Virus record (IMG/VR): IMGVR_UViG_3300031957_002716 | Span: 1 to 23,319 of that record | Strand: one strand, 5' to 3' | DNA from: a virus | DNA length: 23,319 nt | Shown here: positions 2,628 through 13,126 of the stretch, piece after piece | Numbering within the stretch: the first letter of the stretch is position 1 | Layout: each line of letters opens with the position of its first letter | Position numbers and translations under genes: made by a program | The notes under the pieces: generated by a model | What the model was told of the DNA's origin: nothing | Database searches by the model: none | The model's input: only the letters and a program-made list of their open reading frames with translations

Positions 2628-3965
2628 TTAGTCTTGGAATTGCATTGCACGGCGAAGGAATGAGCACGGCACCTCGCCAGTTGCTCCGTTGCGATCCTTG
2701 CCGACGATCAGGATTCGTGACGCCATCGGCTCGCTTGGGTCGTCCACGCCATCAGGGTCTTTCGAAAGGAGAATGATGCGGTCGGCGTCTTGCTCGATGC
2801 TGCCGGACTCGCGCAGGTCAGCAACCTTCGGCTTGCGATTTTGCGTCTCTGACTCTCGGTTGAGCTGGCAAAGGACGATCACCGGAATCTTGAGTTCCTT
2901 GGCCATGTTCTTGACGCTGGTGGACATGTAAGCAACCTCCTGCTCACGGGAATAGAACTTAGTGGAGCACCGCAGCAGTTGCAGGTAGTCGATCACCACA
3001 AGCTCAACGTCCTTCCGGCGCTTCATCCGCCGAGCGTGGGCAATGATGTGCTCGAACGGCGTTGAGCTATCCTCAATCCACACCGGAGCAGGCATTAGCG
3101 CCTTGGCCGTTGCAAAGAACCCGTCCAGGTGATGCTGGGAATACGCGCCCTGCCGTAGGCGGTTCATGCTGATGCGATTGCGACCGCAGTAGATCCGGTC
3201 AACCAGAGATCCGGCTGGCATCTCCTTCGAGAACACAAGCACGCGGCGCGGATTCTCGCCCACAGCAAGGCGTTCCACGATGTTCATGGCGAAAGCGGTC
3301 TTGCCCATCGACGGACGCGCGGCAATCACTGTCATCTCGCCGGGGTGCATTCCTCCGGTGAGATCATCAAGGCCCTTGAGGCCGAATGACAAACCGCCGC
3401 CGCTCGTGTCGCCCTTCCGATAACGCTCGTGCGCTTCCTCCTGGCGCTTTATCGCGTCGTTGACGAGTTCGCGCATGATCGGGATATCCTCCAGCGAGTG
3501 GCCAGCCTTCTCCCGAACCTCAAGCGCCATCGTCTCGAACTGATTCAAGCAAGACTCGGCATCTTCGGCGTTCATCACCATGCGGCGGGCTTGCTCGGCA
3601 GCGTAAAGGATTCCGCGCAGCAATGCCTTCTCGCGGACAATGCCGACGTAGTGGTCCACATACGCCGCCGATGGGGCGAACGACAGGATCAGGGCAATCT
3701 CTCCAGGGCCACCCACATAGTCCAACTTGTTGCGGTCGATCAACAGGGTGTTCAGCATGATGAGGTCAATAGGTTTGCCCTCGTCATGAAGCTCGATGAT
3801 GGTTTCAAACAAGAGCCGACGACCAGCGCTGTAGAAGGCACTTGGGGCTAGTTGCAATCTCACCTCGTCGATCACTTCGCCAGGGGCCTGCATCATGGAA
3901 CTCAATACTCCCCGTTCGCCGTCTGGACTGTGGGGGATTTGTAATACGTCTGGTGTTGCTGTCAT
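2628..3965 (-). CDS. dnaB: Replicative DNA helicase, DnaB family
   Basis: A 445-aa replicative helicase of the hexameric DnaB/gp4 RecA-fold class, expected to unwind DNA at the phage fork. Residues 10-130 form the DnaB N-terminal helical domain (hinge with primase or loader). The ATPase core has Walker A ARPSMGKT (216-223), the catalytic Glu in FSKEMP (about 248), Walker B VVIDYLQL (323-330), the Gln sensor CQLNRESE (from 366) and the arginine-finger region GKDRNGATGEV (422-432). Length matches bacterial DnaB (about 450-470 aa). FSKEMP replaces the commoner FSLEMS. Its ATG overlaps the stop of the upstream primosomal gene by four bases, so the two are co-translated. No separate primase is visible in the window. 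Confidence 0.95.
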   Translation of the reverse strand: MTATPDVLQIPHSPDGERGVLSSMMQAPGEVIDEVRLQLAPSAFYSAGRRLLFETIIELHDEGKPIDLIMLNTLLIDRNKLDYVGGPGEIALILSFAPSAAYVDHYVGIVREKALLRGILYAAEQARRMVMNAEDAESCLNQFETMALEVREKAGHSLEDIPIMRELVNDAIKRQEEAHERYRKGDTSGGGLSFGLKGLDDLTGGMHPGEMTVIAARPSMGKTAFAMNIVERLAVGENPRRVLVFSKEMPAGSLVDRIYCGRNRISMNRLRQGAYSQHHLDGFFATAKALMPAPVWIEDSSTPFEHIIAHARRMKRRKDVELVVIDYLQLLRCSTKFYSREQEVAYMSTSVKNMAKELKIPVIVLCQLNRESETQNRKPKVADLRESGSIEQDADRIILLSKDPDGVDDPSEPMASRILIVGKDRNGATGEVPCSFLRRAMQFQD

Positions 3966-4816
3966 GCTCTTGATGTTCTGCGGTAGTAAATGTTTCGAAA
4001 CTCAACGCTGTTCTCTAGGAGGGCGTCGCGTGTTTCCTTGTCGAGTTGTGCCGGTGGAGTGGTGTTGAAGTATTTGCGCCAGAGGTCTTGCCATACATCC
4101 TTCGGAACTGTTCCGCGCTTAGGCTTCTCTGGCTCGGCCGGAGTCGCCCCGTTTCCTTGTCTTGCTGCTATCTCGCCGTGTGAAAGAGAGAAGCTTTTCA
4201 GGTCGCTTCTCCAGTTGCGAATTGGGTTCCCTCTTGTATCCAGCCAGCCTCGTGCGTCTCGGTGATACCACCATGCCTCGGCTACATCCGGATTAACTCC
4301 GACTTGGGGTGAAGATGATCTCGCTTGGTCTAAGCTGATAAGCGGCTCGCCGTGCGCGGGCTCACACACTTGATTTACTTCTTTTACTTGTTTACTTGAT
4401 TCTACTTTGGTTCCTTCGCGGTTCTTTTGTGGTTCCTTCGCGGTTCCTTGGTGGTTCTTTTGTGGTTCCTTACTTTGCGGATTAGCGTTATATTCCCCGT
4501 ATTTTGTGAGTGAAATGGTGATTCCTTCGCGGTTCCTTTTCACGACCACCATTGATTCCTTTTCGAGCAGCACGAGGAACGCGCGAACTTTCTTCGTGGA
4601 CCATCCCCACCGTTCAGCAAGAAACCTCTGGCTGGCATAGAGACTGCCCCGCTCAAGCCTGATACTCTTGTTGCCGATGATGCGTTTCGTGTCCTTCCAT
4701 GCGGCCATGCGTATAAGGTCGAGCCATGCGCATGCCTTGGAGTATTCTCTCTGCTCGGCCCAAAAGTCGTGCTCGAAGAATCCCCGGCTAAGGGTGATGA
4801 AGCCTTTGTTTTCCAT
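3962..4816 (-). CDS. Primosomal / replication initiator protein, DnaD-like
   Basis: A 284-aa protein placed directly upstream of the helicase gene with an ATGA overlap. Residues 1-100 (MENKGFITLSRGFFEHDFW, then SQRFLAERWGWSTKKVRAFL) look like the winged-helix N-terminal domain of phage replisome organisers (DnaD/lambda O class): a recognition helix in WGWSTKKVRAFL, then a wing before KYGEYN. The middle (about 113-140) is low-complexity and contains a duplicated KEPQKN-x-x-GT unit. The C-terminal part (DVAEAWWYHRDARGW to RSDLKSF) resembles the short C-terminal segments of such proteins that contact ssDNA or the helicase. It probably recognises the origin and loads the helicase. No origin was positively located inside the gene. 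Confidence 0.75.
   Translation of the reverse strand: MENKGFITLSRGFFEHDFWAEQREYSKACAWLDLIRMAAWKDTKRIIGNKSIRLERGSLYASQRFLAERWGWSTKKVRAFLVLLEKESMVVVKRNREGITISLTKYGEYNANPQSKEPQKNHQGTAKEPQKNREGTKVESSKQVKEVNQVCEPAHGEPLISLDQARSSSPQVGVNPDVAEAWWYHRDARGWLDTRGNPIRNWRSDLKSFSLSHGEIAARQGNGATPAEPEKPKRGTVPKDVWQDLWRKYFNTTPPAQLDKETRDALLENSVEFRNIYYRRTSRA
4409..4474. repeat. Short imperfect tandem repeats in the replication initiator gene
   Basis: On the plus strand, units of the form GGTTCCTT and GGTTCTTTTG recur about every 15-18 bases. On the minus strand they encode two copies of KEPQKN-(H/R)-(Q/E)-GT. A related NREGIT unit with CGCGGTTCC recurs at about 4531. Lambda O carries its iterons inside the O gene, so an internal iteron-like origin is possible. 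Coding expansion of a flexible linker explains it equally well. Confidence 0.5.
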
Positions 4817-11845: not shown

Positions 11846-11950
11846 ATGAACAAAATCATGTGCGTTGCGGCCATCCTTCTAAGCGTAGCAATTGCTGCTC
11901 TCAGCGCCGTAACCGTAGCAAATCAGCTTGCTTTGATCTCGGTCAAGTAG
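11846..11950 (+). CDS. 34-aa hydrophobic micro-protein
   Basis: An ORF starting MNKIMCVAAILLSVAIAALS and ending NQLALISVK: one hydrophobic helix (4-24), like a membrane micro-protein or bare signal peptide. Its last 28 bases overlap the 3' end of the convergent DUF2637-like gene. The ribosome site is poor (AGG directly before the ATG). It fills most of the 140-base gap after the second RHH gene; the rest of that gap (11783-11845) shows no clear terminator. A tentative gene. Confidence 0.35.
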   Translation: MNKIMCVAAILLSVAIAALSAVTVANQLALISVK

Positions 11951-12507
11951 CGCCGGACGGTCTTTTCGTTGCGCCGGACAATCTGCGCAATCTCGGTCAC
12001 GGTCTTGCCCATCTTGTGCAGCTCCGCGACCTTGTCGAGAATCGCCTTCTTGGTTTTCTCAGCGCTGGACATCTTGCGTGTTGCTGCGGCCACCTTCTTG
12101 TCCGTCATCAGGTGCCATATGTTCACCATGTGCATGAGGATCTTGAGCGCGATTGCCAAGGACGATGGCGGCACCGCATGGACAAGGACGCCGAGCCAGG
12201 TTGAGGACATCGCAGCTTCATGTCCGTTCGCGACGTTCAGGACAATGGACAGCGCCGTGAACAGGACAATCAGCGCGACATAGGGCCAGACGTGCGCCTT
12301 GGCGCGCATGGAACAGTAGGCCCCAATCATGGACATCACAATCACGCCGTCGATGGATAACGGGAACGACCATGCCGGGGACAAATGGTAAGCCTCGCCC
12401 AGTTCCGCAAGGACACGGAACGACTGCGCAAAGGAACAGACAGCAATCAGGATAGCGACCGAAATAAGTCCGGCACCTGCGACGATTAGAGAACGGTCAG
12501 ACTTCAT
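11923..12507 (-). CDS. DUF2637-like four-TM protein with C-terminal HTH
   Basis: A 194-aa integral membrane protein. Four TM helices lie at about 7-28, 46-65, 73-95 and 104-124. The second begins AWSFPLSIDGVIVMSMIG and the third ends SIVLNVANGHE, the W-x-x-P-L-x-x-D-G and N-V-A signatures of DUF2637, a family known mainly from actinobacterial mobile elements (SpdB-type transfer or spread proteins). Residues 148-190 add a soluble helix and an HTH (MGKTVTEIAQIVRRNEKTV, then RRYL) that can bind DNA. It is divergent from terS, with the TGTCC repeat array between. A membrane-tethered DNA-binding protein is the direct reading; its job is unknown. Confidence 0.7.
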   Translation of the reverse strand: MKSDRSLIVAGAGLISVAILIAVCSFAQSFRVLAELGEAYHLSPAWSFPLSIDGVIVMSMIGAYCSMRAKAHVWPYVALIVLFTALSIVLNVANGHEAAMSSTWLGVLVHAVPPSSLAIALKILMHMVNIWHLMTDKKVAAATRKMSSAEKTKKAILDKVAELHKMGKTVTEIAQIVRRNEKTVRRYLTEIKAS

Positions 12508-12534
12508 GGTATTAGCCTAAGGTTGCCCCTAAAA

Positions 12535-12672
12535 TGTCCGGGCACAACAAGGACAGGGGACAAGAAGAATGTCCGGCACGATGTCCGGTAGCGTGTCCCT
12601 AAAATGTCCGGAACCATGTCCGGGTGAATGTCCACCTTGTTGTCCGTATCGATGTCCGGTTATATAGTCCGG
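12535..12672 (+). repeat. TGTCC(GG) repeat array with 12-base period
   Basis: TGTCC starts at 12535, 12570, 12582, 12594, 12605, 12617, 12629, 12641 and 12653; the last eight are spaced 12,12,11,12,12,12,12. Most read ATGTCCGG. A degenerate AGTCCGG follows at 12666, and two inverted copies (GGACA) lie at 12551 and 12558. The intervening bases are not conserved, so this is an array of binding sites, not a tandem duplication. It fills the gap between the DUF2637-like gene and terS and contains the terS promoter. Candidates are a packaging (pac/cos-binding) site for the terminase small subunit, iterons, or operator sites for the adjacent HTH protein. Confidence 0.85.
12640..12668 (+). promoter_or_regulatory. 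terS promoter inside the repeat array
   Basis: TTGTCC (12640-12645), a 17-base spacer and TATAGT (12663-12668, one mismatch from TATAAT) form a good sigma-70-type promoter. Its -35 is itself one of the TGTCC repeats, and two more repeat units fall in the spacer and -10. The ATG (12677) is eight bases after the -10, so the start of transcription should be at or next to the A of ATG: a leaderless message. Confidence 0.55.
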
Positions 12673-12676
12673 AACA

Positions 12677-13126
12677 ATGGCGAAAGATTCTGACGATTTA
12701 CCCGATGATTTGCGGGAATTGTTCCTGTCCCTGAAGATGCAGCACCAGGAATTTGCGCTGCATATTCTCGATGGAAAAACGCAGGTTGACGCTTATATGC
12801 TCGCGTATCCAAGCGCGTCCAAAGATACCGCAATGCGACAGTCCTCGCGTCTCATGATTAAGCATGAGGGCGTTGTCTCTTTCATCCGGGCATACCAGGA
12901 CAAAGTGTTCCGGACAAGGCACGCGTCCTTTGATAAGAAGCGTTCCAAGTTGAATGACATCATGGATGATCCTGCGTCGGACTATGCTGCGGTCATTGCG
13001 GCGATTCGTGAGGACAACAGAATGACCGGCGACGAGAAGCCCGTGAAGATAGAACTGTCCGTTGAAGACAGGCTCTATGAAGCGATCACGAACGGTTGCG
13101 CTCCTGGGCTTCCGCTATCACAATAG
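12677..13126 (+). CDS. terS: Terminase small subunit
   Basis: A 149-aa protein that should recognise phage DNA and start packaging. The N-terminus (KMQHQEFALHILDGKTQVDAY, then MLAYPSASKDTAMRQSSRLM, then VVSFIRAYQDKV) matches the HTH domain of terminase small subunits, where GKTQVDAYMLAYP...TAMRQSSRLM replaces the usual N-A-T-Q-A-A-x-x-A-G-Y form (about 21-73). The rest is a helical oligomerisation region and an acidic C-terminal stretch typical of the part that contacts the large subunit. It is separated from terL by about 5 kb. The TGTCC array directly upstream is a natural DNA-binding target for it. Confidence 0.8.
   Translation: MAKDSDDLPDDLRELFLSLKMQHQEFALHILDGKTQVDAYMLAYPSASKDTAMRQSSRLMIKHEGVVSFIRAYQDKVFRTRHASFDKKRSKLNDIMDDPASDYAAVIAAIREDNRMTGDEKPVKIELSVEDRLYEAITNGCAPGLPLSQ

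Follow-up and report, generated by a model that had tools for sequence, protein, structure and literature searches.

A helically phased TGTCC array at a DUF2637 helix-turn-helix gene in a viral genome fragment, and its possible role as a site for a membrane-anchored protein

Genes and repeats at the locus

The DNA analysed here, referred to as the window, is a stretch of 23,319 nucleotides from a virus (IMG/VR record IMGVR_UViG_3300031957_002716, positions 1 to 23,319), in which an array of TGTCC units lies between the gene for a membrane protein of the DUF2637 family and the terminase small subunit gene, terS. The first of these genes (11923 to 12507, minus strand) encodes a 194-aa protein that, by comparison with Pfam, has an N-terminal DUF2637 domain with four transmembrane segments (4TM) and a C-terminal helix-turn-helix (HTH). 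The match to Pfam DUF2637 (PF10935) has an E-value of 8e-11 and a score of 42.5 bits, above the curated cut-off of 22.8, and the C-terminal HTH was identified as HTH_23 (E-value 2e-4). Four hydropathy peaks were found, at residues 7-25, 47-65, 75-93 and 107-125. A structure model of the protein consists of long helices predicted at low confidence (pLDDT 64), and a fold search returned nothing below an E-value of 1.5. The terS gene (12677 to 13126, plus strand) was assigned using PHROG 51 (E-value 3.5e-8).

The core of the array consists of eight TGTCC units on the plus strand (12570 to 12657), starting at 12570, 12582, 12594, 12605, 12617, 12629, 12641 and 12653, which gives steps of 12, 12, 11, 12, 12, 12 and 12 bp; in six of the eight the next base is G. 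An outlying TGTCC on the same strand (12535 to 12539) is located 35 bp 5' of the core, or about three periods of 11.8 bp, and two inverted copies (GGACA at 12551 and 12558, together 12551 to 12562, minus strand) are also present. A degenerate unit, AGTCCGG (12666 to 12672, plus strand), begins 13 bp past the last unit and ends 4 bp short of the terS start codon. All of these units, regular, outlying, degenerate and inverted, had been located in an earlier, sequence-only reading of this DNA, and every coordinate was correct on recheck. The TGTCC array is real: when the 169-bp intergenic region underwent 5,000 dinucleotide shuffles, nine copies of any 5-mer were never reached, and the longest chain of units with 11-12 bp steps was 3, compared with the 8 observed. 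The best-fitting period of the core is 11.8 bp, with a resultant of 0.99 that was equalled by none of 2,000 random placements. A promoter-like sequence, TTGTCC-17-TATAGT (12640 to 12668, plus strand), ends 9 bp 5' of the terS start and uses one array unit as its -35 element; matches of this type are not commoner than in shuffled sequence.

The TGTCC/GGACA island

The array stands at the centre of a larger feature, which the earlier reading had overlooked while describing the array itself as it is. No other 5-mer in the window is as clustered as TGTCC/GGACA, which has 27 of its 52 copies within one kilobase (Poisson 3e-20, uncorrected for the number of words). The entire island measures about 1.1 kb (11976 to 13060, both strands), holds 28 of the 52 sites, and takes in the whole DUF2637-HTH gene and part of terS. 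A or T precedes TGTCC at 22 of the 28 island sites, giving the form WTGTCC. On the strand shown, GGAnn words are found mostly to the left and nnTCC words mostly to the right, an arrangement shared with the two most similar elements described below (L035 and L124).

Site density is higher in the DUF2637-HTH gene, with 12 sites in 585 bp, than in terS, with 5 sites in 450 bp. Those in the DUF2637-HTH gene occur in differing reading frames, with codon contexts such as RVL, LSP, MSM and IVL, and only 1.8 would be expected under the codon usage of the window. In 5,000 synonymous-codon shuffles of this gene, the mean number of sites was 4.8 and the maximum 11, so that the observed 12 was reached in none of them. 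Because the sites lie in mixed frames and exceed the synonymous shuffles, selection in the DUF2637 gene acts on DNA words. In terS, the five sites compare with a mean of 1.9 in synonymous-codon shuffles (P about 0.015).

Similar arrays in other elements

Viral contigs were scanned for four TGTCC units at a 12-bp period, which gave at least 119 loci, most of them coding tandem repeats. When ranked by distinct site contexts per kilobase, the leading loci were L035 (29), the window (26), L066 (23) and L105 (21). L035 is the only one of these approximately 119 loci that matches the window's island in density, diversity and two-strandedness (32 sites per kb). It is an actinobacterial conjugative-type element with a TraB/FtsK-like protein, recognised by inspection and without a Pfam hit. 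Its island is located on a gene whose product has four hydrophobic helices, followed by a long linker and an HTH at the C-terminus; downstream of that gene the island carries on as an intergenic TGTCC array. The steps are mostly 11-12 and 22-24 bp, with a period of 11.7 bp and a resultant of 0.94.

The sole plasmid homologue of the L035 protein, retrieved by protein similarity alone, is encoded by a Streptosporangium plasmid (L124), where the repeated word is GTTCCG. The 16-kb locus has 14 copies of AGTTCCG, all of them in the homologue's own gene and in the gap before ftsK, at steps of 22-23 and 13 bp (period 11.4 bp, resultant 0.93). No terminase is present in the stretch seen of either L035 or L124.

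Matches to the TGTCC array in 40 actinobacterial genomes were again mostly coding tandem repeats, and the reversed pattern also matched about 20 genomes; four units alone are therefore not specific. A pattern search of the viral contigs for close relatives of TerS, TerL and the DUF2637 protein found none. On one phage contig (L006/L108), an AAA_25 (replicative helicase-like) gene carries a TGTCC array at its 3' end.

DUF2637 genes in actinobacterial genomes and plasmids

DUF2637 is present in 151 of 395 sampled actinobacterial genomes, and 146 plasmid records match relatives of one plasmid DUF2637 member. Excluding the window and L035, a word-enrichment score (-log10 P) greater than 10 was obtained for 6 of 75 DUF2637 or related genes, compared with 7 of 488 control genes drawn from the same loci (P 0.004). 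Fourteen Streptomyces/Kitasatospora plasmids were picked by DUF2637 similarity only, and not for islands; in 10 of them the top word island of the locus is at the DUF2637 gene (within 500 bp), where 2.5 were expected (P 1e-5). Among the genome loci, which are mostly chromosomal, there was no significant excess of the top island at the DUF2637 gene (13/53 vs about 11). An equally strong island was found in one of 60 fetched genome loci, that of an actinobacterial genome (L183; Pfam DUF2637 E-value 3.5e-26) in which 33 of 38 TGGCA copies lie in the linker and the downstream gap.

The plasmid islands are built from different words, including GGGGACC (L274), CTGCGCA (L277), CTGCT/TGCAG (L282), TGACCG (L284), TGGAA (L286 and L287) and others. 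Genes for parA/parB or partition are found beside the DUF2637 gene in 6 of the 14 plasmids (L271, L273, L276, L277, L283 and L286), and ftsK or type IV coupling protein genes in L270, L272, L274 and L282. In L284 (8107 to 8458), TGACCGAT units occur in 7-bp pairs, several of them 22-23 bp apart, 3' of the DUF2637 gene. GTTTCG units in L236 (4710 to 4928) recur every 21-22 bp from the upstream gap into the DUF2637 gene, in one helical phase, and a TGCCAC array with steps near 11-12 bp in L130 (Nonomuraea; 12829 to 12977) lies 5' of an apparent ssb gene, about 4.4 kb from a DUF2637 gene. The CCCCACG island of L238 was set aside as a CRISPR-like array with a 61-bp period.

The DUF2637 proteins of Mycobacterium phage Theia and Rhodococcus phage Swann are short membrane proteins that stop before any HTH; their genes adjoin serine integrase genes and are without an island. 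PHROG 733 and actinophage DUF2637 proteins (L128 and L129) are labelled excisionase, a doubtful name.

A putative membrane-anchored DNA-binding system

What the phased arrays have in common is a 4TM protein whose C-terminus carries an HTH, and not a terminase, Rep protein or translocase; recognition of the word by this protein is the simplest explanation. Of the two suggestions made in the sequence-only reading, one was that the array is a phased site for the DUF2637-HTH protein. This is supported by the repeated occurrence of such arrays at the 4TM-HTH genes of unrelated elements, from which we infer binding. On balance we think it probable, though far from certain, that the array and island are the DNA sites recognised by the DUF2637-HTH protein encoded next to them, and serve as a centromere-like tether that would also be autoregulatory. 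As at plasmid-type centromeres, short repeats in helical phase, here 11.8 bp, adjoin the gene of an HTH protein.

Under this proposal, the four N-terminal helices would be embedded in the cytoplasmic membrane, leaving the C-terminal HTH to read WTGTCC. Many HTHs fixed in one plane could contact only one face of a DNA molecule lying along the membrane, and the sites would be spaced about one or two helical turns apart because the membrane-fixed HTH layer reaches a single DNA face. Filling of the array would produce a membrane-bound nucleoprotein complex, which may act as a centromere-like tether in the maintenance or positioning of extrachromosomal phage or plasmid DNA. The same complex would also occupy the promoter region between the divergent DUF2637 and terS genes. 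It is possible, as a more tentative suggestion that we would not yet favour, that DUF2637-HTH proteins form a new class of DNA-segregation factor, with one membrane protein, a helically phased one-face centromere, and a replicon-specific word for self-recognition. In the literature searched there was no description of such arrays for DUF2637, and the domain itself was named in a single paper.

Several observations weigh against the tether proposal. The majority of DUF2637 genes have no island, so support is limited to a subset of the family, with three elements providing the best of it, and it was the array itself that led to two of the four strongest cases (the window and L035). Only the window, L035 and L124 show firm helical phase; it is suggestive in L183, L236 and L130, and the islands of L282, L286 and L287 are clustered without it. 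Many plasmid islands fall within the coding sequence of linkers, and low complexity there could be part of the cause; wholly coding islands also exist (the main word of L274, and L285). Masking of all annotated coding sequence in 17 plasmid loci left an excess beside DUF2637 genes that was not significant overall (5/17 vs 3.5, P 0.24). Four noncoding gaps score above 10 (L124, L274, L282 and L284), all beside a DUF2637 gene or a relative, with a 138-bp open reading frame separating the L284 gap from the DUF2637 gene.

The family relationships and the gene content of the window count against it as well. The L035 protein gives no Pfam DUF2637 match, and L035 and L124 fall outside DUF2637 (tested with L035). 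The idea that they are circular permutants of DUF2637 was rejected, as weak matches in permuted order did not rise above 200 shuffles. HTH sequence as a predictor of the word was likewise rejected, since in this sample there was no correlation and no common word within HTH groups. A word that differs between elements is to be expected from coevolution, but also from unrelated arrays. The large genes recognised in the window encode DnaB, a DnaD-like helicase loader, Erf, an exonuclease, a head-tail connector and TerL. Among the large genes scanned in this 23-kb fragment no integrase, ParA or FtsK was recognised, nor was a partner nucleoside triphosphatase (ParA, ParM or TubZ), in which respect the locus departs from a plasmid-type centromere.

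Other explanations for the array

Alternatively, the array could be no more than an operator, through which the DUF2637-HTH protein represses both its own promoter and that of the divergent terS; the membrane part would then sense or sequester, and the protein would have no role in positioning. In favour of this, the array fills the divergent intergenic region and contains the promoter-like site that ends 9 bp before terS, and gene orientation changes near it from mostly leftward to mostly rightward. However, the 28 sites reach far past a promoter, being spread across 1.1 kb and both genes, and the arrays of L035, L124 and L183 are located inside and 3' of the gene. We therefore regard operator function alone as unlikely.

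Replication-origin iterons recognised by a Rep protein, such as the GTGGGAAC/TTCCCAC iterons of the Streptomyces plasmid pWTY27 (PMC3583192), are a less probable explanation still. Arrays of approximately 12 bp do occur in rep-like genes. In the Nocardiopsis plasmid pNPL1 (L126; 4881 to 5213), a GTTCCCA/TGGGAAC array with 12-bp steps lies inside a DUF927 gene, and because its word is nearly that of pWTY27 these are probably replication iterons. Within the window itself, a GGTTC array (4209 to 4545, strongest at 4409 to 4470) with exact 12-bp steps is found in the DnaD-like helicase-loader gene (3962 to 4816, minus strand) next to DnaB, and is likely a replication origin inside the initiator gene. 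The phage thus already has a likely origin array at 4.2-4.6 kb, which argues against a second such function at the TGTCC array. The DnaD-like and DnaB genes (2.6-4.8 kb), where the GGTTC array is located, do not adjoin the TGTCC array. Neither the TGTCC island nor the island of L124 has a recognised rep gene next to it, and GC skew does not switch at 12.5 kb.

The sequence-only reading had favoured a packaging (pac) site bound by a ring of TerS subunits. Known pac sites lie in or near terS. The array is directly 5' of terS, with sites extending into that gene, and in this it resembles the pac and R-site arrays of SPP1 and lambda, which are likewise repeated sites in or near terS. This likeness is weakened by four phages related to the window by TerL or TerS, Klebsiella phages ST15-VIM1phi2.1 and 2b LV-2017, Ochrobactrum phage POI1126 and Burkholderia phage BcepMigl, none of which has a comparable word array at terS. 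Moreover, the higher density of sites in the DUF2637 gene, and the similar arrays at 4TM-HTH genes of plasmids, in stretches without a terminase, do not fit packaging. No positive support for the TerS ring was obtained, and a packaging site now appears improbable. TGTCC repeats in a TerS-like 3' end next to TerL (L052/L063) were considered as support for packaging and rejected, as they proved to be a DIEQ coding repeat. In L052 (1600 to 1800), the protein in the terS position has about 15 C-terminal DIEQ repeats and is encoded immediately 5' of TerL.

Streptomyces TraB binds repeated 8-bp TRS motifs (PMC4170104), and a loading site for such an FtsK/TraB-type translocase, like the TRS repeats of the clt locus, would suit L124, whose island adjoins an FtsK gene, and L035, whose island is near a TraB/FtsK-like gene, but it is very improbable here, since the 23-kb window has no recognised FtsK-like gene and L277, L283 and L286 combine islands with parA or partition genes without ftsK in the stretch shown.

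Comparison with known systems

A close parallel to the proposed tether in arrangement is StbA of plasmid R388, which binds the stbDRs, two sets of five 9-bp direct repeats with 2-nt spacers around its own promoter, and which is needed for plasmid stability and positioning, stability being independent of its ATPase neighbour StbB (PMC3098194). Like the window, this system combines a small DNA-binding protein with repeats of 11-bp period at its own promoter (PMC3098194), but as described StbA has no membrane domain and there are no arrays inside its gene. In type II and type III partition, parC and tubC are iteron arrays 5' of the operon that are bound by the small repressor ParR or TubR (PMC5016525). 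These work with ParM or TubZ filaments, of which none were found in the window, and the window sites are shorter, occur in both orientations and are spread through genes.

Compared by description, SpdB2 offers an earlier example of a membrane protein that binds DNA and takes part in the spread and stability of plasmids: in the Streptomyces plasmid pSVH1 it is an integral membrane protein that binds double-stranded DNA, oligomerises and interacts with TraB, and SpdB2 of SLP2 affects stability (PMC4170104). Its DNA binding was reported to be non-specific (PMC4170104), unlike that proposed for DUF2637-HTH. Precedents for sites within the cognate gene in actinobacterial plasmid maintenance are provided by the parS of ParT in SCP2 (PMC12260392) and the sps of SpdA in pIJ101 (PMC4170104), both inside the protein's own gene. 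ParB1 and ParB2 of SCP1 also function in plasmid maintenance, with inverted-repeat sites (PMC13245405). All three systems differ from the window in having single or few inverted repeats and not phased arrays, with no membrane anchor reported.

Implications for the DUF2637 family

The link between some DUF2637 proteins and element-specific site arrays provides a concrete and cheap test for the family. If the proposal is true, membrane-anchored site recognition would join the known ways in which plasmids and phages position their DNA, and the reason for the helical phasing of the sites would be that a single face of the DNA is accessible.
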